A stretch of 64,000 nucleotides of DNA, from positions 434,001 to 498,000 of the forward strand of contig NZ_JABBWV010000004.1 of assembly GCF_012999535.1 (NCBI RefSeq). Direction: 5' to 3'. This document shows, in pieces, positions 35,188-45,318 of the stretch. How positions within the stretch are numbered: position 1 is the stretch's first letter; the number at the start of each line of letters is the position of its first letter. Origin of the DNA: Microbispora sp. H11081. Its GTDB lineage: Bacteria > Actinomycetota > Actinomycetes > Streptosporangiales > Streptosporangiaceae. The notes under the pieces were generated by a model that saw only the letters and a list, made by a program, of their open reading frames with translations, made no database searches and had not been told where the DNA came from. Position numbers and translations under genes: made by a program.

Positions 35188-36069
35188 CTAAGCGGTGAGG
35201 GGCAGAAACAGGTCGCCGTGTTCCGCCACCCGGTCGAGCACGTCGGGAGCGGTGAACACCAACTGGTCCGGGCTGTCGCACGCCTCGACCTCCTCCCACA
35301 GCAGGGGAGTTGACGCGGTCGGCCGCCGGGCGGCGCGCAGCGAGTAGGGCGCGATGGTCGTCTTGGCCGGGTTGTTCTGGCTCCAGTCGATGAAGACCTT
35401 GCCCGGCCGTTCCTTCTTCGCCATCACGCTGGTCACGAACGGGTGCTCCGCCTGCATCCGCCGGGCAAGCGCCTTGGCGTAGTCGGACGTGCCCGGCCCC
35501 CGGTCCCAGGGGACGTAGAGCTGCATGCCCTTCTGCCCGCTGGTCTTGGGACGGCAGTCCAAGCCGTCGTCCGCCAGGGCCTCCCGCAGCAGGACGGCGA
35601 CGCGGCAGCAGTCGACGATGGTGGCCGGTGCGCCGGGGTCGAGGTCGAAGACCAGGGTGTCGGGCGGCTGCGGCTCGCCGTCCTTGGCCACCCGCCACAT
35701 CGGCACGTGGATCTCCAGGGCGGCCAGGTTGGCGTAGTAGACCAGGGCCGGCAGGTCCTCCACGACCGCGAAGTCGATCTCCTCGCGGTTCTTGGTGCTG
35801 CCCGGCGCGGGCAGGGTCACCGTACGGATCCAGTCGGGCGTGTGCTCCGGGGCGTTCTTCTCGAAGAAGAACTGGCCCTCGACGCCGTTCGGATAACGCT
35901 TGACCGTGAGCGGGCGTCCCTTCAGGTGCGGCAGCAGGACCGGCGCGATCCGGGTGTAGTAGTCGATCACTTCGGCCTTGGTGAACGCAGCGCCGGGATA
36001 GAGGACCTTGTCCAGGTTGGTCAGGGTAAGCAGGCGGCCCTCGGTCTTCACCCGCACCTTCTCGGTCAT
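35188..36069 (-). CDS. ligD: LigD-type primase-polymerase domain protein for non-homologous end joining
   Basis: The 293-residue protein begins 'TEKVRVKTEGRLLTLTNLDK' and 'VLYPGAAFTKAEVIDYYTRI', typical of stand-alone LigD polymerase domains. Catalytic features include 'VKRYPNGVEGQFFFEKNAPE', 'DTLVFDLDPG' (DxD metal ligands), and 'TSGQKGMQLYVPWDRGPG'. It fills gaps at broken DNA ends. Its ATG overlaps the ligase stop by 4 bases (ATGA), so the two are coupled; Ku is divergent next door. In mycobacteria these domains are fused with a nuclease in one LigD protein; here they are separate. Confidence 0.93.
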   Translation of the reverse strand: MTEKVRVKTEGRLLTLTNLDKVLYPGAAFTKAEVIDYYTRIAPVLLPHLKGRPLTVKRYPNGVEGQFFFEKNAPEHTPDWIRTVTLPAPGSTKNREEIDFAVVEDLPALVYYANLAALEIHVPMWRVAKDGEPQPPDTLVFDLDPGAPATIVDCCRVAVLLREALADDGLDCRPKTSGQKGMQLYVPWDRGPGTSDYAKALARRMQAEHPFVTSVMAKKERPGKVFIDWSQNNPAKTTIAPYSLRAARRPTASTPLLWEEVEACDSPDQLVFTAPDVLDRVAEHGDLFLPLTA

Positions 36070-37022
36070 CCCTGCTCCTCCCGCCGCACGTCCGCGGGCA
36101 CCCTGTCCACGCGCACGCCCCGCCACACAGGGTTGCGCAGCCGCCCGTCCCGCGTCCACATCGTGAACGCCACCTCGCCCACCACCTCGGGCCTGACCCA
36201 CCGGGCGTTCCTGGAGATCTCCCTCGGCAGCCCGTCCGAGAAGGGGCTCTGCCCGATCTCGAGCGGCTCAATCAGCCGGAGCAGGTCGCCGAGCATCGCG
36301 TCGGTGAACCCGGTGCCCACGTGGCCGGCGAACAGGAATCGGCCCGGGGAGCCTCCGGCGTACACGCCGAGCAGGAGCGAGCCGACGCCGCCCGCGCGGC
36401 GGCCCTTGCCGGGCCGCCAGCCGCCGACGACGACCTCGGCGGTGAGCAGGTTCTTGACCTTGATCCACCATTCCGTCCTGCGCCCCGGGCGGTACGGCGA
36501 GTCGAGGCGCTTGGCGACCACGCCTTCGAGCCCCTGCCGCCTGGTGGCCTCCAGCACCGCGGGCTCGCAGGGGAAGTGGGGCGGCGCGCCCACGCCGAGC
36601 GAGTCGAGCAGGGCCCGCCGGTCCCGGTACGGCACGTCGAGCAGCGTGTGCCCGTCGAGGTGGAGCAGGTCGAAGGGCAGGTAGGAGACCGGCAGCCGGC
36701 CGAGCAGGTGGGCGCCGGCGGGATCGGTGATGTGCATGCGCTTCTGCAGCCGGGCGAAGCTGGGCCGGCCGTCGAGGTCGAAGGCCACCACCTCGCCGTC
36801 GACGACCGCCCTGCGGCCGGCCAGCGGCGCGAGGGCGGCGGAGATCTCCGGATACCGGGAGGTGAAGTCGGCGCCGTGCCGTCCGGTGACCCGCACGCCG
36901 CCGTCGACGTACGCGAGCGCGCGGATGCCGTCCCACTTCACCTCCAGCGCGTACGCCTCGGCGTCGAGAGGGATTTCTCCTGGAATGGCAAGCATCGGCT
37001 CGATCGGATACGGCACCGCCAT
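36066..37022 (-). CDS. ATP-dependent DNA ligase (LigD ligase-domain type)
   Basis: The 318-residue protein has the nucleotidyl-transfer motif 'LEVKWDGIRALAYVDGG' with the adenylated Lys, 'VVDGEVVAFDLDGRPSF', 'LEGVVAKRLDSPYRPGRR', and motif V 'TEWWIKVKNLLTAEVVVGGW'. The OB-fold lies in the last 100 residues. It seals ends in Ku-dependent end joining. The ATG at 37022 gives 'MAVPYPIEPMLA', the usual N-terminus; longer readings run into the ku promoter. Confidence 0.93.
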   Translation of the reverse strand: MAVPYPIEPMLAIPGEIPLDAEAYALEVKWDGIRALAYVDGGVRVTGRHGADFTSRYPEISAALAPLAGRRAVVDGEVVAFDLDGRPSFARLQKRMHITDPAGAHLLGRLPVSYLPFDLLHLDGHTLLDVPYRDRRALLDSLGVGAPPHFPCEPAVLEATRRQGLEGVVAKRLDSPYRPGRRTEWWIKVKNLLTAEVVVGGWRPGKGRRAGGVGSLLLGVYAGGSPGRFLFAGHVGTGFTDAMLGDLLRLIEPLEIGQSPFSDGLPREISRNARWVRPEVVGEVAFTMWTRDGRLRNPVWRGVRVDRVPADVRREEQG

Positions 37023-37098
37023 AGTGGGTACCTGCCCATCGGGTGACTCCCTTGAATCCACCATAGCGTTGTTCGAACACAGAGACGAGAATGTGGCT

Positions 37099-38040
37099 AT
37101 GCGCAGCATCTGGAAAGGCGCGATCTCGTTCGGTCTTGTCACCATCCCGGTGAAGCTCTACTCGGCGACCGAGCAGAAGGACGTGGCGTTCCACCAGGTG
37201 CACAGGGAGGACGGCGGGCGGATCAAGTACAAGCGGGTCTGCTCGGTCGACGGCGAAGAGGTGCCGTACTCCGACATCGCCAAGGGATACGAACTCGCCA
37301 CCGGCGAGATGGTCGTGCTGACCGACGAGGACTTCTCCGACCTGCCGCTGACCACCTCGCGCAGGATCGACGTGCTGCAGTTCACCCCCGCGGAGCAGAT
37401 CGACCCCATTTACTTCGCCAAGTCGTACTACCTGGAGCCGGACGGGCAGGGCGCCAAGCCGTACGTGCTGCTGCGGGACGCGCTGGAGCGCTCGGGACAG
37501 GTGGCGGTCGTGAAGATCGCCCTGCGGCAGCGCGAGTCGCTGGCCGCGCTCCGCGTGCGTGACGGCGTCTTCGTGCTGGAGACCATGCTCTGGCCGGACG
37601 AGATCCGCGAGGCCGACTTCGGGTTCCTGGAGGAGGACGTCGACGTACGTCCCCAGGAGCTGAAGATGGCCGAGTCCCTGATCGAGACCATGGTGGCGGA
37701 CTTCGACCCCACCGAGTACAAGGACGCCTACCGCGAGGCGCTGCAGGAGGTCATCGAGGCCAAGGTGGCGGGCAGGGAACTGGTCGCGCCCGAGGTGCCC
37801 ACGGAGGCCGGTCCCGCCGTCGACCTGATGGCCGCGCTGCGGGCCAGCGTGGAAGCGGCCAAGCGGGAGCGCCAGGGCGTCACCGCGGCCAAGCCGGCCG
37901 GTGGAGCCGCCAAGACGAAGGCCGCCGCCTCCGGCACGAAGTCCGCCGACGCAGGCGCCGCAGGCAGGAAGGCCGGATCGAACGGAGCCGGCGAGGAGGA
38001 GAAGGCGCCCAAGAAGCGGAAGACGCGCCGCTCGGCCTGA
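37099..38040 (+). CDS. ku: Ku protein, DNA double-strand break end binding
   Basis: The 313-residue product starts 'MRSIWKGAISFGLVTIPVKL' and has 'KYKRVCSVDGEEVPYSDIAK', 'AEQIDPIYFAKSYYLEP' and 'YKDAYREALQEVIEAK', the bacterial Ku core. It ends with a long Lys/Ala-rich basic tail ('KAPKKRKTRRSA') as in Streptomyces and Mycobacterium long Ku forms that bind DNA more tightly. It is divergent from the ligase/polymerase pair, with about 75 bases of shared promoter region. Confidence 0.95.
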   Translation: MRSIWKGAISFGLVTIPVKLYSATEQKDVAFHQVHREDGGRIKYKRVCSVDGEEVPYSDIAKGYELATGEMVVLTDEDFSDLPLTTSRRIDVLQFTPAEQIDPIYFAKSYYLEPDGQGAKPYVLLRDALERSGQVAVVKIALRQRESLAALRVRDGVFVLETMLWPDEIREADFGFLEEDVDVRPQELKMAESLIETMVADFDPTEYKDAYREALQEVIEAKVAGRELVAPEVPTEAGPAVDLMAALRASVEAAKRERQGVTAAKPAGGAAKTKAAASGTKSADAGAAGRKAGSNGAGEEEKAPKKRKTRRSA

Positions 38041-38253: not shown

Positions 38254-38562
38254 TCAGTCGTCGTCGTCGCCGTCGATCTCGATGACGGCGTCACCGGATG
38301 CGAAGGCCACGTTCTTCCGGTGGACCTTCTTCTCCTTCTTGAACTTGAAGACGCGGAAATCGTTGCGGTTCTCCAGCTTGTTGCGGTTCTTGTTGCAGTT
38401 GCGAGCGCGCCTGCAGCCGTCCGGGCCGTGCCACCAGGAGCTGGACATCGTGGTGGTGGTCGGGGTGGAGGCGTGGGCGGTGGTGGCGGTCAGCGCGAGA
38501 GCGCCGCCGGTCATCGCCGCGCTGATCGCGAGGCCGGTGATGACGTTCCGGAATTTGGGCAT
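38254..38562 (-). CDS. Small secreted protein P1 of the 38-45 kb array
   Basis: The 102-residue product has a signal peptide 'MPKFRNVITGLAISAAMTGG' ending near 'TTAHA' (cleavage about residue 31), almost the same as in P2-P6. The mature part starts Thr/Ser-rich, has 'WWHGPDGCRRARNCNKNRNK' with two cysteines, a Lys-rich segment 'VFKFKKEKKVHRKNVAFASG' and ends 'DAVIEIDGDDDD'. GAGGAGGG precedes the ATG. It differs from P2-P6 in its mature sequence but has the same pre-ribosome-site element (GGGCAATCCATCCTTTGAGGA). Function unknown; not similar to any family I can name. Confidence 0.85.
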   Translation of the reverse strand: MPKFRNVITGLAISAAMTGGALALTATTAHASTPTTTTMSSSWWHGPDGCRRARNCNKNRNKLENRNDFRVFKFKKEKKVHRKNVAFASGDAVIEIDGDDDD

Positions 38563-38970
38563 AGAGGCCCTCCTCAAAGGATGGATTGCCCGTGGTTCCG
38601 ACATCCCCACTACTGCCGGGAATGTCCGATGATGGCCGATATGTCCGGTCATCGCCGTGATGTCTAGATTGCCGAGAGGGCCGAGAACCAAACGCGGCGG
38701 TGAGGAGTTTGATCTCTCGTTACGGCTTGATACGGCCGGATAGGCGACTGCTGACTGAATCAGCGGCCGGCCTCCGATTCGCCGGTTGCGGGACGGGGTA
38801 GACGGCGGAGCCGCGTTTCCCCGTGACGGCCTTCCCCAACCCTCCGCCGAGGCTGTTTCCCCGGCGGTCTCGCGGCTCCGGCAGCGTGGCCGTGCCCGTA
38901 CGCGGCGGTCCGTCCCGGCCGTACGGGTTTCGTCGTGTGCGGCGGCGGATCGGGGGGTCCGCGATTCACG
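38563..38970. other. P1 leader and gap up to the P2 terminator
   Basis: The part next to P1 holds a hairpin (38598-38608 with 38618-38627), similar to hairpin B of the other leaders, and several copies of a ATGTCCG/CGGACAT motif (38622, 38640, 38648). The GTTTGTC box and hairpin A are absent. I see no gene in the rest. Confidence 0.6.
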
Positions 38971-39181: not shown

Positions 39182-39844
39182 CTAGCGCAGGTTGTTGTGG
39201 AACCGGTTGTTGTTGAGCTGGTCGCGGACGTTCCACCAGTGGTTGTTGTTCAGCCAGTGGTTGTTGAACCAGTTGTTGTCGCGGTTCGTCTTGTCCTGGA
39301 AGCCGAGGGCCACGTCCTTGGCGACGACGCCGAAGGCGGAGTGGTCGTCACGGGCGTCCTTGTAGAGGCCCTGGTTCCAGAAGCCCTGCTGGTTCCACCA
39401 GGAGTTGTCGCCCCGGTTGTTGGCGAGGTTGTTCAGGTTGCCGTTGTTGCCACCCTCGTTGAGGCCGTTGCCGAGGCCACCGGCCCCGCAGCCGCCGCTG
39501 CCGCAGTTGTTACCCGGGCCGAAGCCGAAGTTGTTGAACGGCACGGTCTGGTTGAAGAAGGCGGGGGTGCCGTTGTTGCCCTGGGCGATACCGCCGGTGC
39601 CACCCCGGTTGCCGTTGGCGACGCCGTCGTCGTTGCCGGAGTTGAAGCCGGGGAAGAACCCGAAGTTGCCGAGACCTGTGTTGTCCTGGGCGATGCCGCC
39701 GGTGCCCCCGCGATTGCCGTCGGCGACGCCGTTGTTGTCACGACCCAGGTCGGCGCTGGCGGCGGTGGCCCCCAGAGCGATGGCACCGCCGATAACCGCG
39801 GTGCTGAGCGCGAGGCCTGCGATGATCTTGTTCAGCATGGGCAT
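39182..39844 (-). CDS. Secreted Asn-rich protein P2 of the 38-45 kb array
   Basis: The 220-residue product begins 'MPMLNKIIAGLALSTAVIGG' with predicted cleavage after 'TAASA' (about residue 31). The mature chain is unusually rich in Asn, Gly, Phe and Trp. It holds two copies of a 16-residue unit ('DGNRGGTGGIAQDN', 'NGNRGGTGGIAQGN'), a Gly/Cys patch 'NNCGSGGCGAGG', then the C-terminal block shared with P3 and P4: 'WWNQQGFWNQGLYKDARDD', 'FGVVAKDVALGFQDKTNRDN', 'NWFNNHWLNNNHWWNVRDQL'. AAGGAGG lies 7 bases before the ATG. Low-complexity Q/N-rich secreted chains can form amyloid; that is an inference here. Stop gives 'NNLR' as in P3. Confidence 0.9.
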   Translation of the reverse strand: MPMLNKIIAGLALSTAVIGGAIALGATAASADLGRDNNGVADGNRGGTGGIAQDNTGLGNFGFFPGFNSGNDDGVANGNRGGTGGIAQGNNGTPAFFNQTVPFNNFGFGPGNNCGSGGCGAGGLGNGLNEGGNNGNLNNLANNRGDNSWWNQQGFWNQGLYKDARDDHSAFGVVAKDVALGFQDKTNRDNNWFNNHWLNNNHWWNVRDQLNNNRFHNNLR

Positions 39845-39994
39845 TATGTATCCTCCTTGGCAGGATTCGATTTCGATTGCCCTTATAGTCGGGGACATTT
39901 CTCGCCTTTCACGATGCGGGAAATGCCTTTATGGCCCCTATTGGGCCCTGCTCCCTACGCTAGCTGTGATTTCCTCTCGGCCTGCGTGACAAAC
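39845..39994 (-). promoter_or_regulatory. P2 leader: GTTTGTC box, two hairpins and pre-ribosome-site element
   Basis: In the gene direction: GTTTGTCA (39987-39994), hairpin A GGGCCC-AATA-GGGGCC (39933-39948), hairpin B with GGCATTTCCCGC / GCGAGAAATGTCC (39893-39927), then GGGCAATCGAAATCGAATCC and the AAGGAGG site before ATG. The same order and spacing occur before P3, P4 and P6. Confidence 0.75.
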
Positions 39995-40705
39995 GAGTAT
40001 CTGACGCCTTTGATCAATGATTAGCTACTTATAAGCTTGATTCGATGGATAATGCGCCTTTTGTGTGAAAGGTACGATTTGCCCCCCCGGCGGGAGTCGT
40101 GGTGAGAAGGCGGCGAGCGGGAGGGGTGGCCGGCGGAACTCGTGCGGATGGGTGGAGTCGCCGGTAGCTGACACCCGACCGGTTTCGAGCCGTCGTCCCG
40201 CGCGCGGGACGACGGGCGCAGCGGGTGGGGCAGCAGGCTGAGGCAGCGGAGTGGGGCTGCGGGTGGAGCAGCGGGGTGGGCGTCCGGTCGGACTGGCGCC
40301 GCGAGGGCGGCCGGGCTCTGCCGGAGGGGCGACTTCGCCGGGTTCGCCGGCTCTGTTCGCGGGGGGTGGCGCTGCCCCTGCTCACTGCCTGTGTGCGCCG
40401 GCTCTGTTCTCCGGCTCTGTTCTCCGGCCGGAGTGGTGCTTCGCGGTGGGGGAGTGCACCGCAGGTCCGGCGGTGACCTCGGTGGCGCTTGGACGCTCCG
40501 ACCGGGTGCGCCCGGGCGGGGTGCGTCCGGGCGGGGTGCGTCCGGGGTGCGTCCGGGGTGGGGGAGGTCGCGCGGACCGGACGACGGAGCGCGGGGGAAG
40601 GGGCGGGGAAGGTAGGTGTGCCACCGGGGTGCGGTCGCCGCGGATTCGGCGACGGTGGGGCGGACGGTGGGGCGGACGGTGGGGCGTCGGTGCGGCGTAT
40701 GGGAC
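39995..40705. other. Gap between P2 promoter and P3 terminator
   Basis: The first 80 bases are AT-rich (TTGATCAAAGG near 40010) and probably belong to the P2 control region. From 40090 on the sequence is G-rich, with simple repeats (see 40347-40690), and I see no gene. Readings on both strands give only Arg/Pro/Gly-rich nonsense. Confidence 0.6.
40347..40690. repeat. Cluster of short tandem repeats
   Basis: Three separate arrays are present: ccggctctgttct at 40398-40410 and 40411-40423 (a third copy near 40348); a 15-bp unit gtgcgyccgggcggg at 40506-40520 and 40521-40535 with shortened copies to about 40560; and gacggtggggcg three times at 40651-40686. They lie in the non-coding gap between P2 and P3. 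Confidence 0.8.
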
Positions 40706-40738
40706 AGGGCCCCGGCGGAAGTTTCCCGCCGGGGCCCT
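40706..40738 (-). terminator. Hairpin terminator of P3
   Basis: AGGGCCCCGGCGGA and TCCCGCCGGGGCCCT form a 14-bp stem around a short loop. It lies about 205 bases after the P3 stop. There is no T-tract on the minus strand. Confidence 0.75.
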
Positions 40739-40943
40739 TAATTGGTGCGTTTGAGGTTGAGTCGGCCGCTTCCCGGTGGCGAATCGCTCAGGGAGCATTC
40801 GCCCTGCCGGAGAAGCGTCTCTGCATTCAACGACGCCGCTCTGGCGGACGGGGCGCAGAACCTTGGCGGGTTATCGCCCGGGTCCTACCCCTCACCGCGG
40901 AGATGTGGCGCGGTCACTCGCAGGGCCTGTTGACGGCACCCTC

Positions 40944-41456
40944 TTAGCGCAGGTTGTTGTTGAACCAGTTGTTGTGCAGCTGGTCACGGTTGTTGAACAG
41001 GTTGTTGTGCTGCCACCAGTTGTTGTTGAACCAGTTGTTGTCGCGGTTCGTCTTGTCCTGGAAGCCGAGGGCGACGTCCTTGGCGACGAGGCCGAACCCG
41101 GACGTGTCGTTCAGGCGGTCCGCGAACAGGCCCTGGTTCCAGAAGCCCTGCTGGTTCCACAGGTTGTTGTTGTTCCAGTTGTTCTGCTCGTGGTTCTGGA
41201 TCGGCGTCCGGTTGTTGTTGTTGTTGTTCGGCACCTGGTTGACGAACACAGGGAAGTTACGCTCGAACGGAATGAAGTTGTCCTGGGCGATGCCGCCGGT
41301 GCCTCCGCGGTTGCCGTTTGCGACGCCGTCGCGACCGCCGTTGTCGCACCCGCCCGAGCACGACGCGTTCGCAGCCACGGCCCCCATGGCCAGCGCGCCG
41401 CCGATGACGGCGGTGCTGAGAGCGAACTGTGCGACGATCTTCTTGAACTTGGGCAT
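40944..41456 (-). CDS. Secreted Asn-rich protein P3 of the 38-45 kb array
   Basis: The 170-residue product starts 'MPKFKKIVAQFALSTAVIGG' with cleavage after 'AANA'. The mature chain has 'CSGGCDNGG', one copy of the unit 'DGVANGNRGGTGGIAQDN' found twice in P2, an Asn run ('VPNNNNNNRTPIQNHEQNNW'), and the shared block 'LWNQQGFWNQGLFADRLND', 'FGLVAKDVALGFQDKTNRDN' and 'WFNNNWWQHNNLFNNRDQL'. It ends 'NNNLR'. It is the closest relative of P2. AGGGGGAC lies just before the ATG. Predicted extracellular; function unknown. Confidence 0.9.
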   Translation of the reverse strand: MPKFKKIVAQFALSTAVIGGALAMGAVAANASCSGGCDNGGRDGVANGNRGGTGGIAQDNFIPFERNFPVFVNQVPNNNNNNRTPIQNHEQNNWNNNNLWNQQGFWNQGLFADRLNDTSGFGLVAKDVALGFQDKTNRDNNWFNNNWWQHNNLFNNRDQLHNNWFNNNLR

Positions 41457-41601
41457 TGCGTGTCCCCCTTGACAGGATTTCGATTGCCCTGATTCTTGAG
41501 GCGATTCCGGGCCTCGCGGCCCTTTGGAATTGCCCGATGGCCCCCGTTTGGAGCTTGGTTCCTGCGATTACGTTCATTTCCTGGGCGGCTGGGTGACAAA
41601 C
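41457..41601 (-). promoter_or_regulatory. P3 leader: GTTTGTC box, two hairpins and pre-ribosome-site element
   Basis: GTTTGTCA lies at 41594-41601, hairpin A GCTCC-AAAC-GGGGGC at 41539-41554, and hairpin B GGCAATTCC / GGAATCGCC at 41500-41534. GGGCAATCGAAATCCTGTCA and AAGGGGGAC precede the ATG. A CGGACATT-like box (here CAGACATTTCG) lies about 75 bases further upstream at 41676-41690. Confidence 0.75.
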
Positions 41602-42072
41602 GGTTCTCCCGGCCTTTTAATCAATACTTAGACCTATATGACGGCTATTAAAGCCATTAGGGTCAATATGTCGCGAAATGTCTGAATCGGGAAGCGTCGT
41701 GCCGCAACCTCAAGGCGTGGGAAGCGGAAGCGGAGCCGATGAGAGCCGTCGTAGCCAAGAGCGAACGCGTGGCCATACAGCCGCTTGCGGGCCTGGTGGC
41801 CCCTGTGAGCGCTGCGGCCTCGCGGCGCTGGTGAACGGCGCTGGTGAACCCCCTGCGGCCGTGCGGGACGGCACGGCCTTGCGGCCAGTAGGCCCCGGTG
41901 AACCGTGCCGCCTGTGAGCCGTGCTGCCTTGCGGCCCTCGTGGACCGGGCGGCCTTGTCGGACGGTACGGCGCTCGATCCGGACGGTGGTCGGCGTGTGC
42001 CGGCCGCGTGTCGGCCGCGTGCCGGGAATCCCGGGTCGCCGCCGGGTGCGGTGAAGCCGTCGGCGGACGGTG
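41602..42072. other. Gap between P3 promoter and P4 terminator
   Basis: It starts AT-rich (TTTTAATCAATACTTAG) in the P3 control region and turns into a low-complexity stretch with repeats such as ggcgctggtgaac (41828-41853) and variants of gtgaaccgtgccgcctgtgagc. No gene is seen. Confidence 0.6.
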
Positions 42073-42112
42073 AAAAAGTCAGGGCTCCGGCGAGAACGTC
42101 TCGCCGGAGCCC
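42073..42112 (-). terminator. Rho-independent terminator of P4
   Basis: GGGCTCCGGCGAGA and TCTCGCCGGAGCCC pair around 42083-42112, followed on the minus strand by TGACTTTTT. Sequence and tail are almost the same as in the P2 terminator. Confidence 0.9.
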
Positions 42113-42311
42113 TTTGCGTGTCATCCCTATGGTTCGAACGGCCGTTCCCGGATGGTGTCTCCATCACCTGGTGCGCGATGGGTCCGGGAGCGGGTGGCTG
42201 CGCTCAATGCGCCCTTTTCCTGGTCGGGTCGCATCGGCCAGGATCGTTGGTCGTCCTGGTCGTCACGTCATCCGGCCGATCGGAAGGCGGCGTTGCCTCG
42301 CAGGCCCCGCG

Positions 42312-42800
42312 TCAGAAGCCGTTGCCGAAGCCGGGGTTGTTCCACACGTTGTTGTTGTTCCGGTTGTTCATGAACGTGTTGTTGTTCCAGAAGCCGTTGT
42401 TGAACCAGTTGGTGTTCCGGTTCGTCTTGTCCTGGAAGGCGATGGCGGCGTTCTTGCCGATGATGGCGAACCCGGAGTTGTCGTCGACGTTGTCGGTGAA
42501 CGCGTTCTGGTTCCACATGCCCTGCTGGTTCCAGAACATGTTGTTGTCGTTGTTGCAGAAGCCGTTGCCGAAGCCGTTGCCGAAGCCTCCGCCACCGCAG
42601 CCGCCGCCGCACCCCTCATTGCCACCGAAGTCGATGGGAACGAAGTTGTTGAACATGGGCATTCCGCCGCCCAGGAAGCCGCCGCCGAAGCCGCCGCCGA
42701 AACCTTCGGCGTTCGCGGCGGTGGAGCTCATGGCGATGGCGCTGCCGGCGATGGCGGTGCCGAGAGCGAGCCCGGCGAAGACCGTCTTGAACTTGGGCAT
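42312..42800 (-). CDS. Secreted Asn/Gly-rich protein P4 of the 38-45 kb array
   Basis: The 162-residue product starts 'MPKFKTVFAGLALGTAIAGS' with cleavage after 'AANA'. The mature chain opens with Gly/Phe repeats ('EGFGGGFGGGFLGGG'), then 'NEGCGGGCGGGGFGNGFGNG', and the block shared with P2/P3: 'MFWNQQGMWNQNAFTDNVDD', 'FAIIGKNAAIAFQDKTNRNT' and 'NWFNNGFWNNNTFMNNRNNN'. AAGGGGGAC precedes the ATG. The conserved 'FQDKTNR' followed by Trp-Phe-Asn-Asn defines the P2-P4 family. Predicted extracellular; function unknown. Confidence 0.9.
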   Translation of the reverse strand: MPKFKTVFAGLALGTAIAGSAIAMSSTAANAEGFGGGFGGGFLGGGMPMFNNFVPIDFGGNEGCGGGCGGGGFGNGFGNGFCNNDNNMFWNQQGMWNQNAFTDNVDDNSGFAIIGKNAAIAFQDKTNRNTNWFNNGFWNNNTFMNNRNNNNVWNNPGFGNGF

Positions 42801-42943
42801 TGCTGTCCCCCTTGAAAGGATTGGATTTCCCCCGCATCCTCTTCGGCATTTCTCTTGGTGAGGAAGTGAGAAATGCCTTTGTGGCTCCGTGTGGAGCCGG
42901 GTTCCTGCGATACGTTGATGTCCGGTGGCCCAGCCCGACAAAC
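42801..42943 (-). promoter_or_regulatory. P4 leader: GTTTGTC box, two hairpins and pre-ribosome-site element
   Basis: GTTTGTC lies at 42937-42943, hairpin A GGCTCC-ACAC-GGAGCC at 42883-42898, hairpin B GGCATTTCTC / GAGAAATGCC (perfect 10 bp) at 42845-42877, then GGGGGAAATCCAATCCTTTC and AAGGGGGAC. AATCGGACATT lies about 76 bases upstream of the box (43019-43028). Confidence 0.8.
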
Positions 42944-43330
42944 GCCGCCTTATGGCTTTTGATCAGCTATTAGCAGCCTATGGAATGAATTAGAGGCAAA
43001 AGGGGCGACTTGTCCCATAATGTCCGATTCGAATCCACGGTGCACACGAGGGCGAAGGACCGGGACAAGCGACGGTGGAGTGCCGCGATCCGCCGAGGCA
43101 CGGCCGGTCGGGCTCAGGCGGGGGCGCTCCAGGAGACGAGAGACGAACCTGGTGAGGGGACGAGGCGGTCACGGCGTGGACGGCCCGGAGGAGGGCGATG
43201 GGCGCGGGGGAGGAGCGCAGAGGGGGACGGAGGAACGAGAGGCGGAGACGGCGGCCCAGGGGCCGCAGGGGCCCGCCGGCGCGTCCAGGGGCGGGCGCGG
43301 AGGGAGGCCCGAATCCGAATGTGCGACGAC
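42944..43330. other. Gap between P4 promoter and P5 terminator
   Basis: The first 80 bases resemble the other array promoters (CTGATCAAAAGCC, CGGACATTATGGG). The remainder (43050-43330) is G/A-rich without a gene. 'gattcgaatcc' at 43025 looks like a tRNA T-loop but no cloverleaf forms around it. Confidence 0.6.
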
Positions 43331-43388
43331 GAAAAGTGCCCGTGCTCACGTCGGGCGCGGAAATCCACGCCCAGGCGAGCACGGGCAC
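43331..43388 (-). terminator. Rho-independent terminator of P5
   Basis: GTGCCCGTGCTC (minus strand) pairs with GAGCACGGGCAC around a loop that itself contains a GGGCGTGG/CGCGCCC pairing, followed by TTTTCGTCG. A smaller hairpin CCCGGGCC-GGT-GGCCCGGG lies just before it at 43402-43420. Confidence 0.9.
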
Positions 43389-43461
43389 ATTTCATCCTGC
43401 TCCCGGGCCGGTGGCCCGGGGTTCAGCGTGGCCGGTCAGCCCGGCCTGTGGCGGACACGGA

Positions 43462-44061
43462 CTACGGGATGGCCTCGTAGCCGGGCCGCGGGTAGCGGTC
43501 CTTCTTCTTCTCGATGTCGACGTCCGCGTCGACGTCGACGTCCTTGACCTTGGTCCGCGGGTTGATGGCCGTGGCCTGGTTGGTCCGAGGCGTGGCGACC
43601 GAGGACTGGCCCTGGCGCGGCAGGTTCTGCGACTGCGTGTTGTCGTACTGCGAGCTGAAGGGCAGCGCCTGCGTCTGGCTCCACTGAGCGTTGTACGGCA
43701 TGGCGCCCGAGCCGTTGGTGGACTTCTGGAACGGCGTGAGCACGAGCGTGAAGTCACGCATCAGGAACTGGTCCTGGGTCTCCGACTGACGGAGGTGCTG
43801 CCACTGGTTGTTCTTGTTCTTGTTCTTGTTCTTGTTGCCGTTCGCGGCCTTGTGGCGCTGGCCCTGGCGGTTGTAGTTCCAGTTGACGTTGGCGCTGCGC
43901 GGGTAGGAGCGAGCCGCCGGGGCGGGAGCGGGAACGTACCCGCCCATCACGGTGGTGGCACCGGCGGTGCCGGCGGTGAAGCCGACGCCGAGCACGACGG
44001 CCGCGCCGCTCAGCGCGGTGCCGAGGGCCAAAGCCCCGGCGATGTTCTTCAACACGGACAT
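43462..44061 (-). CDS. Secreted Asn/Gln/Lys-rich protein P5 of the 38-45 kb array
   Basis: The 199-residue product starts 'MSVLKNIAGALALGTALSGA' with cleavage after 'TAGA'. The mature part begins 'TTVMGGYVPAPAPAARSYPR', then a basic Asn/Lys run 'NGNKNKNKNKNNQWQHLRQS', the block 'RDFTLVLTPFQKSTNGSG', 'VATPRTNQATAINPRTKVKD' and an Asp-Val alternating tail 'DVDVDADVDIEKKKDR'. P6 has the same order of blocks, so P5 and P6 form a second family. GAGGAGA precedes the ATG. Unlike P2-P4 and P6 it lacks the hairpin leader. Function unknown. Confidence 0.88.
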   Translation of the reverse strand: MSVLKNIAGALALGTALSGAAVVLGVGFTAGTAGATTVMGGYVPAPAPAARSYPRSANVNWNYNRQGQRHKAANGNKNKNKNKNNQWQHLRQSETQDQFLMRDFTLVLTPFQKSTNGSGAMPYNAQWSQTQALPFSSQYDNTQSQNLPRQGQSSVATPRTNQATAINPRTKVKDVDVDADVDIEKKKDRYPRPGYEAIP

Positions 44062-44136
44062 CTGGATGGTTCTCCTCTGAATATCGCGACCCTCCCCCGG
44101 TGCCGTACGGAGCCGGACGAGGGTGGTAGTAGTGCG

Positions 44137-44156
44137 GCGCCGTGTCGACACGGCGC
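44137..44156. promoter_or_regulatory. 20-bp perfect palindrome upstream of P5
   Basis: gcgccgtgtc-gacacggcgc is a perfect 20-bp palindrome about 80 bases upstream of the P5 start. It may be an operator; a transcription factor cannot be named. Confidence 0.5.
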
Positions 44157-44234
44157 GATGCGGTGGCTCGCGCCGGCGGCCCTCTCCTCGAAGCCGCCGC
44201 CGGCGCTCTGCTTCCTCAACTGCTCACCCGTCCG

Positions 44235-44267
44235 CCTGTGGGGCGGTGGACACCTCCGCCCCACAGG
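44235..44267 (-). terminator. Hairpin terminator of P6
   Basis: CCTGTGGGGCGG (44235-44246) pairs with CCGCCCCACAGG (44256-44267) around a 9-base loop, about 80 bases after the P6 stop. No T-tract. Confidence 0.75.
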
Positions 44268-44347
44268 TCACGAGTACGGATGGCCGTCCGGTGCCGCGTC
44301 ACCTGCCGTGGCCGGGACGTTCACCGAGGCCGCTTGTGCGGATTCGG

Positions 44348-44926
44348 TCAGGGCACGATCTCGGGCTCGGTCTCGTAGCCCTTCCGCTCCTTCTGCACGT
44401 CCAGGTCGATGTCCGCGTCGATCTCCTTCTTCTTCAGACGCGGGTCGATCTCGGTGGCCTGGTTCGTCTTCGGCGTGGCCGCGGACGCCTGGGCCTGACG
44501 CGGGTTGTTCAGGGAGTCGGCGTTGGTGTACATGCGGTTCCACGGAATCGCCTGCGAGGAGCCCGCCTGCCAGTTGTACGGCAGCGCCCGCGAGTCGGAG
44601 TCCGTCTTCTGGAACGGCGTGAGAACGAGCGTGAAGTCACGCAGCAGGAACTGGTGCTGTCCCTGGTTCTGACGCTCGTGCTGCCACTGCTTGGTGCGGT
44701 TCTTGTTCTTGTTCTTGTTGCCGTTCAGCGCCTTGTGCTTCTGCTTCTGCGAATTCCGGTTGGCGTTGTAGTTGTAGGGGTACGGGTAGCCGCCGCCCAC
44801 GTAGCCGCCCATGACGGTGGCGGCGTTCGCGCTGGTGGCGGCCACAGCGGTACCCAGGGTGACGGCACCACCGGTGAGCGCGGCGCTGATCGCGAGGATC
44901 CCGACCAGGTTGTTGAACTTGGGCAT
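44348..44926 (-). CDS. Secreted Asn/Gln/Lys-rich protein P6 of the 38-45 kb array
   Basis: The 192-residue product starts 'MPKFNNLVGILAISAALTGG' with cleavage after 'TSANA'. The mature part has 'TVMGGYVGGGYPYPYNYNAN', 'NGNKNKNKNRTKQWQHERQN', 'RDFTLVLTPFQKTDSDSRAL', 'ATPKTNQATEIDPRLKKKEI' and an alternating tail 'DADIDLDVQKERKGYETEPE'. It pairs with P5 block by block, while its leader is of the P2-P4 kind. AAGGAGGAC precedes the ATG. Tyr/Asn/Gln-rich character suggests an assembly or surface role (inference). Confidence 0.9.
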   Translation of the reverse strand: MPKFNNLVGILAISAALTGGAVTLGTAVAATSANAATVMGGYVGGGYPYPYNYNANRNSQKQKHKALNGNKNKNKNRTKQWQHERQNQGQHQFLLRDFTLVLTPFQKTDSDSRALPYNWQAGSSQAIPWNRMYTNADSLNNPRQAQASAATPKTNQATEIDPRLKKKEIDADIDLDVQKERKGYETEPEIVP

Positions 44927-45060
44927 TTCATGTCCTCCTTGAAGGATTGTTGCCCCGACACTCCGGCGTTTTCCAAGTCGTTCGGAAAATGCCCTTACTG
45001 ATGATCCTTGGTGGATCATCCCTGCATTGTCTTGTTTTCCTCGCCGTCCGACTGACAAAC
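44927..45060 (-). promoter_or_regulatory. P6 leader: GTTTGTC box, two hairpins and pre-ribosome-site element
   Basis: GTTTGTCA lies at 45053-45060, hairpin A GATGATCC-ACCAA-GGATCATC (perfect 8 bp) at 45000-45020, hairpin B GGCATTTTCC / GGAAAACGCC at 44965-44993, then GGGGCAACAATCCTTC and AAGGAGGAC. ATTCGGACATTTCG lies about 100 bases upstream (45159-45171). Confidence 0.8.
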
Positions 45061-45318
45061 GGCGATCGGCGGCTTTTGCCATTCACTTATCGCTTTATTG
45101 GCATCGTTGGCACCGATAGGAGCGCATTAGTCCGGATTGTCATTCGTATCCGCATTTCGAAATGTCCGAATAGGGGTGATATTGGCGCTATGTCGCGCTC
45201 GCCGATCGGGCGAACCCGGATGATCGGTCCCCTGTGGCCCGGGTAGCGGGAGTGCCCGCCGAGGAGGTGCGCGGGCGGCGTTATGGTCGAGAAACGCGAG
45301 GAGAACAGGGGAGGACGC
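45061..45318. other. Divergent region between P6 and the hydrolase gene
   Basis: It contains AT-rich sequence of the P6 control region (AAAGCGATAAGTGAATGGCA) and the CGGACATT box. Nearer the hydrolase no clear promoter is seen. An ATG at 45283 is in frame with the hydrolase but lacks a good ribosome site. Confidence 0.5.

Follow-up and report, generated by a model that had tools for sequence, protein, structure and literature searches.

The 64,000-nucleotide stretch of the Microbispora sp. H11081 genome analysed here, which we call the window, carries six tandem genes on its minus strand, P1, P2, P3, P4, P5 and P6 (Table 1). P2 to P4 are paralogues of one another, as are P5 and P6, with 56% identity between the latter two. 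The first-pass annotation had described a leader with two hairpins, A and B, before P2, P3, P4 and P6; all four leaders are present with both hairpins, and the order and spacings it gave for a GTTTGTC box, the hairpins and the start codon are correct within a few bases. To these four we add a fifth, more divergent copy upstream of P1, which scores 20.7 bits with R1, a covariance model of the four copies, and 59.3 bits (E 6e-19) with R3, an RNA-only (promoter-free) model of 54 leaders, three P1-type leaders from relatives included. P5 has no R3 match, and a search of 338 bases upstream of it found no GTTT-N15-17-GG..A; having neither promoter nor leader, it may be under different control. Compared with dinucleotide shuffles, the joint fold of A and B is clearly better in P4 (z -4.7) and in P6 (z -4.5), and modestly so in P2 (z -1.9; 8 of 200 shuffles do as well) and in P3 (z -1.95; 7 of 200). 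Because the folds of P2 and P3 only modestly beat the shuffles, the window alone is no proof of structure.

We therefore rest the argument on leaders from many genomes. The leader set comprised 213 matches (86 at E 0.05 and 127 at E 0.01), two of which had no start codon, leaving 211. GTTT is present in 206 of these, and reduction to leaders less than 75% alike over 51 bases gave 67. Hairpins were analysed in 65 leaders, since two of the 67 gave no hairpin B; the weakest hairpin A has -0.7 kcal/mol. The sequence-only alignment A7 holds 57 leaders, ten of the 67 with missing or weak hairpins having been omitted, which favours structure, and the RNA-only alignment A8 holds 54, with three long leaders omitted.

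In the 65 leaders the median number of pairs is 9 in hairpin A and 11 in hairpin B. Exchanging arms between leaders (780 swaps for each hairpin) weakens both hairpins, A from -10.9 to -6.3 kcal/mol and B from -11.8 to -5.9 kcal/mol. The native hairpin is stronger than the median swap in 59 of the 65 leaders for A and in 62 for B, and stronger than all 12 swaps in 18 and 25 of them, respectively. In A7, 80.6% of the cells are paired (71.2% after shuffling), there are 152 two-sided changes (61.3 in the shuffles), and the covariation score is 0.390 (0.235 shuffled, at most 0.186 in slid registers); for each of these three measures the count among 500 shuffles is 0. The covariation score is 0.402 in A8, where slid registers give at most 0.199. 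As the 57 leaders had been picked partly on hairpin strength, we also ranked every six-pair helix in all 67 leaders without regard to structure. When the helices are ranked on the fraction paired, B leads (89%, with 57 two-sided changes) and A takes the sixth and eighth places (85% and 84%; 50 and 57 two-sided changes), the third going to UCCUUU with GGGGGA at the ribosome site (88% paired, 1 two-sided change). Ranked by two-sided changes, helices one to three are registers of B and the fourth is a register of A. This comparison of sequences shows that hairpins A and B are under selection for pairing. The covariation with kept pairing that had been read from the four copies of the window thus holds with many homologues, far beyond what shuffles, slid registers and arm swaps give.

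The leader is not confined to the array; in the samples scanned, it is dispersed within one family. The search over relatives that had been proposed for a model of the four copies gives, with R1, matches in 15 of 15 genomes of the genus, and in 73 of the 250 genomes (13 of 68 genera) of the family sample. Of the 345 order-level genomes, R2, a covariance model of 57 leaders, matches 114, spread over 15 of 70 genera; in the class sample it matches 9 of 394, and its single match among the 296 genomes of the phylum sample is the Microbispora genome itself. Every matching genome in the order, class and phylum samples belongs to the Streptosporangiaceae; scans of more than 40 genomes used stricter filters, with which weak matches are lost. 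Within the Microbispora genome R2 has seven matches at E <=1e-3, five in the array and two elsewhere. One of the latter (C33:118103) precedes another protein with a signal-peptide-like start. The other (C43:138855) has the promoter described below and a start codon 82 nt after the -35 element, and no clear hairpins; the gene behind it codes for a P5/P6-like protein of 326 residues, and this short leader is a natural experiment on the contribution of the hairpins. Downstream of 84 of 86 matches and of 66 of the 67 leaders (overlapping sets), a signal-peptide-like start can be recognised by eye. These proteins often begin with MPKF or MPKL, their mature part is rich in Asn, Trp, Cys or charged residues, and, as far as N-termini read by eye can tell, they are apparently secreted.

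The GTTTGTC box, which the first-pass annotation had counted in the RNA element, behaves like a -35 element: a -10 element (GGAAAT) lies at a near-fixed distance from it. The box is better read as the -35 of a promoter GTTTGT-N14-GGAAAT, so that the motif has two parts, promoter and hairpins. When the 67 leaders are aligned on GTTT, one sees two information peaks, CGTTTGTC and GGAAATCAA, and a spacer which carries little information. The two bases of the GG lying 16 bases after GTTT are found in 98% and 95% of the leaders; the third base of the -10 element is A in 74%, C in 19% and G in 1%, and its fifth base, A, is conserved. Further upstream in the same alignment, A-rich peaks occur near -16, -27, -38, -47, -57, -67 and -77, that is, about every 10 bp or one helical turn; such phased peaks over 70-80 bp upstream of the -35 suggest curved DNA or an element resembling an upstream promoter (UP) element.

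This promoter resembles the SigB/SigF/SigN type, an assignment of sigma type which we make tentatively. In PMC8346170, the B. subtilis SigB promoter is given as GTTTAA-N12-14-GGG(A/T)A(A/T), and GTTT is said to be more conserved in the promoters of the sporulation sigma factors SigF, SigH and SigN; the GTTT of the leaders (206 of 211) and their 14 nt between hexamers, inside the 12-15 nt range of that family, agree with this. The Streptomyces promoters of the SigF, SigH and SigN type (sspA, with GTGT-16N-GGTTAC, and nepA) are alike in their spacing of 12-16 nt and their GG..A -10, and the SigB-family targets reported also include small exported developmental proteins (PMC8346170, PMC4282423). 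Unlike that Streptomyces type, the leaders described here have tight spacing, phased A-tracts and a structured leader, the sspA mRNA being leaderless (PMC4282423). Most starts in Table 2 of PMC8346170, as read from it, lie 7-10 nt after the -10; starts at this distance would therefore place both hairpins in the RNA, and transcription should begin just 5' of hairpin A.

The promoter and the hairpins mostly travel together. In the genome of the window, CGTTTRYC-N13-GGMAAW has three matches, all at leaders (P2, P3 and P6), and none in the reversed control; it misses P1, P4 and C33:118103. A longer promoter pattern gave 77 matches, against 1 for the control, in 297 genomes of the family. We fetched 15 of the 77 places, 10 of them new, and found an R3 match behind the promoter motif in 14 of the 15 and in 9 of the 10, bearing in mind that one of the 15 (L193) was in the training set of R3 and that most come from genomes which supplied training leaders. 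Conversely, at E 1e-3 R3 yields 212 matches, which come from 85 sources. Among the best 150 of these 212, GTTT-N16-GG.AA occurs within 60 nt upstream in 136 (chance, 0.9%) and a looser form in 10 (chance, 6.5%); four are without promoter, three of which (L106, L123 and L128) are off by one spacing base in A7. These 85 sources were mostly picked by models containing the box, so the co-occurrence of promoter and hairpins is not independent. Six places were found by R3 only in the genus scan: two have strict promoters, three have GTTT and GGAAA at another spacing (by eye), and one has none. At L038:5505-5602 (plus strand), one of the weak R3 matches, an RNA leader of 48.3 bits has no promoter and lies just downstream of a terminator-like hairpin that has lost its T-run; here the leader was perhaps kept after promoter loss, the gene now being read from its neighbour. 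At L044:5770-5885 (plus strand), and also in L201, a weak leader-like match lies directly 3' of the stop codon of the preceding gene and is followed by a gene for a signal-peptide-like protein with a GTG start.

The two hairpins differ in composition. A-U pairs make up 38 of 245 pairs in the core of hairpin A, which is G+C-rich and free in sequence, and 164 of 200 pairs in that of hairpin B, the G+C content of the window being 71.5%. Since this A-U core exceeds what pairing alone needs, it suggests that hairpin B is recognised by a factor. The two arms of B are separated by anything from 8 to 44 nt, and no conserved core was seen by eye in the hairpin loops.

Downstream of the hairpins, a strong Shine-Dalgarno (SD) sequence (G-rich columns 177-181 of A7) is directly preceded by a 4-nt anti-SD in 59 of the 65 leaders, compared with 38.9 after shuffling those bases and 5 expected with bases from elsewhere in the leader. 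A block GGGCA stands between hairpin B and the SD in 39 of the 67 leaders. In L126, L128 and L123 (genus g62) and in L119 (genus g39) it is replaced by an AGAGGAA-like sequence which could pair with UUCCUUU, the anti-SD, and might be an anti-anti-SD specific to these lineages. Several further candidate elements were rejected. A switch between upstream purines and the anti-SD has no covariation, and competitors for the anti-SD are not in excess (one is present upstream in 39 of 59 leaders, 35.0 being expected); pairing of the 5' segment with the pre-SD region is -4.21 in native and -4.14 in swapped combinations (p 0.36). A third hairpin between B and the SD is weak (native -2.63, shuffled -1.94, p 0.026). 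Pairing of GGGCA with the start AUGCCC cannot be separated from conservation of both (12.66 native, 12.52 swapped), and a conserved leader peptide is not seen among the upstream open reading frames (ORFs) of 6-60 codons, which occur in 34 of the 65 leaders at scattered places.

The remaining features of the array are as follows. In Pfam and NCBIfam the array proteins match no family (at the cut-off for Pfam, where P1 reaches 22.6 bits with New_glue, 31 being needed). On the minus strand, P2 and P4 are each followed by a strong terminator-like hairpin with a T-run (39011-38982 and 42113-42081), the two being very similar, so that these two genes are alike at their 3' ends as well as at their 5' ends; a scan of the region gives 12 terminator-like sites, against 8.3 expected, and these two have the longest stems by far. 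GACATT/GGACAT half-sites, like one arm of hairpin B, lie upstream of P3, P4 and P6 and inside the P1 leader, and could be a transcription-factor site. The array is flanked by Ku and LigD-type (ligase, primase-polymerase) genes at 35188-38040 of the window, as identified with Pfam.

Table 1. Genes, leaders and leader parts of the array, in positions of the window (SD, Shine-Dalgarno sequence; aa, amino acids)
Feature	Position	Strand	Remark
P6 leader + promoter	44924..45061	-	R2 match, 103.6 bits
P6 -35 element	45054..45061	-	CGTTTGTC
P6 -10 element	45035..45040	-	GGAAAA
P6 hairpin A	45000..45020	-	8 bp, 5-nt loop
P6 hairpin B	44965..44993	-	
P6 anti-SD + SD + start codon	44924..44949	-	anti-SD UCCU, SD AGGAGG
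P6 ORF	44348..44926	-	192 aa, signal-peptide-like start
P5 ORF	43462..44061	-	P6 paralogue without leader
P4 leader + promoter	42798..42944	-	R2 match, 90.9 bits
P4 -35 element	42937..42944	-	CGTTTGTC
P4 -10 element	42918..42923	-	GGACAT
P4 hairpin A	42883..42898	-	6 bp
P4 hairpin B	42845..42877	-	10 bp
P4 anti-SD + SD + start codon	42798..42822	-	
P4 ORF	42312..42800	-	162 aa, Asn-rich, signal-peptide-like start
P3 leader + promoter	41454..41602	-	R2 match, 81.7 bits
P3 -35 element	41595..41602	-	CGTTTGTC
P3 -10 element	41576..41581	-	GGAAAT
P3 hairpin A	41540..41554	-	5 bp
P3 hairpin B	41499..41535	-	
P3 anti-SD + SD + start codon	41454..41479	-	
P3 ORF	40944..41456	-	170 aa, Asn-rich, signal-peptide-like start
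P2 leader + promoter	39842..39995	-	R2 match, 85.0 bits
P2 -35 element	39988..39995	-	CGTTTGTC
P2 -10 element	39969..39974	-	GGAAAT
P2 hairpin A	39933..39947	-	5 bp
P2 hairpin B	39894..39927	-	
P2 anti-SD + SD + start	39836..39867	-	first ATG 39842-39844
P2 ORF	39182..39844	-	220 aa, Asn-rich, signal-peptide-like start
P1 leader + promoter	38560..38694	-	fifth copy; R2, 70.8 bits
P1 hairpin A	38627..38656	-	interrupted stem
P1 hairpin B	38600..38626	-	
P1 ORF	38254..38562	-	102 aa, signal-peptide-like start

The first-pass annotation had found no riboswitch consensus that fits the leader, and Rfam 15 gives no family at gathering score in the window; in E-value mode it gives four matches, all outside the leaders (the best, sodF_sRNA, has 34.9 bits, the threshold being 46). 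A search of the open PMC literature, limited to titles and the starts of abstracts, found no description of it. The leader thus differs in its lack of an Rfam 15 match from Actino-pnp, mraW, msiK and ykkC-III, which are likewise structured actinobacterial leaders (Rfam; PMC2864571). On these sequence data the structured mRNA leaders appear to form an undescribed family with a promoter type of its own, and their molecular role is one that we can only deduce.

The leader is probably an RNA control element which sets the lifetime and the translation of the message. The reading that we favour, though we would give it slightly less than an even chance, is that of a promoter-driven stability and translation element in the 5' untranslated region (UTR) of genes for developmental secreted proteins. 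Each leader gene would be its own expression unit with a SigB-like developmental promoter. The 5' UTR, of about 95-120 nt, would begin a few to about 15 nt before hairpin A, run through hairpin B and end in a strong SD that has an anti-SD beside it, the ribosome site being partly masked. Hairpin A, near the predicted 5' end (for the middle half of the 65 leaders, about 10-18 nt separate its start from the -10), would protect the message in the manner of the ompA and aprE leaders, and the A-U core of hairpin B would be the contact site of a trans-acting factor, an RNA-binding protein or a ribonuclease (RNase). Together, the hairpins and the SD region would set the lifetime and translation of mRNAs whose products are abundant secreted surface proteins made during aerial growth or sporulation. 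In PMC7509114, the 5' stem-loops of E. coli ompA and B. subtilis aprE are described as mRNA stabilisers which, as here, are combined with strong ribosome binding and an exported protein; unlike them, the present leader has two hairpins, shows compensatory change across a family and is common to many genes. A more specific proposal, which we consider rather unlikely, is a dedicated post-transcriptional regulon across the Streptosporangiaceae: a single developmental protein that binds RNA (or an RNase) would recognise hairpin B by its A-U core in the mRNAs of secreted coat or surface proteins, and so time their translation or decay in the course of aerial growth and sporulation.

Several points weigh against this reading. 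Start sites, half-lives and timing are those that we infer from sequence. Between the -10 and hairpin A there are 14-21 nt in P2, P3, P4 and P6 (11 in P1), and several unpaired 5' nucleotides are more than is ideal for end protection. The SD is predicted to be unpaired 34% of the time, which hints at regulated translation. We write that the promoter resembles the SigB family, and not that it belongs to it, because the third base of the -10 differs: in the family, positions one to three are G and position five is A, and here the third base is mostly A, even if some SigF promoters listed in PMC8346170 deviate too, for instance with a GGACAT -10. Moreover, the box is included in R1 and R2, and some of its conservation in the sequences they match therefore comes from selection by the models; the promoter is absent at 7 of 10 hand-picked weak R3 matches; and L176, at C43:138855-138939 (minus strand) of the own genome, is a copy of the promoter without clear hairpins. 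As to the structure itself, one of the five measures, which counts the pairs having at least one two-sided change, is not significant (16, versus 13.8 in the shuffles; 63 of 500). Orthologous leaders are related, hence the counts are not independent, and the 57 leaders were chosen partly for stable hairpins.

Among the three options which the first-pass annotation had left for the element, the protein-binding leader fits best, together with a role in stability and translation; the riboswitch is less favoured, and the attenuator conflicts with the sequences. The main rival is a translational switch, in which the ribosome site is buried in the anti-SD/SD helix, and a small RNA or RNA-binding protein in contact with A or B opens or closes it, flipping the whole regulon together after transcription. 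SD-sequestering leaders and RNA thermometers have their anti-SD just 5' of the SD, as is the case here, and differ from the present leader in that it has two extra conserved hairpins. The excess of anti-SDs beside the SD (59 of 65, versus 38.9 and 5), the low predicted accessibility of the SD (0.34), the A-U core of hairpin B and target genes all of one kind speak for such a switch. However, neither of the alternative pairings described above is backed (39 of 59 versus 35.0; p 0.36), and the anti-SD/SD helix is near-invariant, so that covariation is uninformative about it; we regard the switch as a minority possibility, albeit a serious one. The arms of hairpin B, often GACATTTCC/GGAAATGTC, and the GACATT-like half-sites upstream of the P3, P4 and P6 promoters would also suit DNA palindromes serving as operators for dimeric transcription factors near the promoter. 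This is improbable, as the distance between the arms of B is not fixed (8 to 44 nt), A varies in length and loop, the arms covary and both hairpins lie downstream of the promoter.

A metabolite riboswitch could account for a conserved structured leader and for the GGGCA block between B and the SD (39 of 67), but the other conserved block, GGAAATCAA, sits at the -10, the loops are variable, the two hairpins are independent with no alternative platform found, the targets look structural and no Rfam family matches; a riboswitch is not favoured, and we think it quite improbable. Hairpins located between promoter and gene invite the idea of a transcription attenuator or of leader-peptide control, to which we give very little credence. 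Intrinsic attenuation is contradicted by the sequences: none of the 65 leaders has UUUU in the 12 nt that follow hairpin B, and the terminator-like hairpins with T-runs lie instead downstream of P2 and P4; the scattered upstream ORFs (34 of 65) speak against a leader peptide. Finally, the paralogy of P2 to P4 and of P5 and P6 would allow the likeness of the leaders to reflect recent duplication, that is, shared descent without function. The two-sided changes of the stems with kept pairing across many genera, the lack of a leader at P5 and its presence at dispersed genes of other sequence make this the hardest explanation to believe.

The leader, read as a promoter-driven stability and translation element or otherwise, defines an RNA family unmatched in Rfam 15, and its promoter motif is specific enough to list a regulon of apparently secreted, low-complexity proteins. 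The Streptosporangiaceae are a bacterial family known for aerial spores. The promoter pattern, the covariance model and the exact stems give a handle on the sigma factor, on the RNA-binding partner and on the surface proteins, and with this finding the developmental control of exported proteins by SigB-type factors, seen in Streptomyces, would reach to the Streptosporangiaceae as well.

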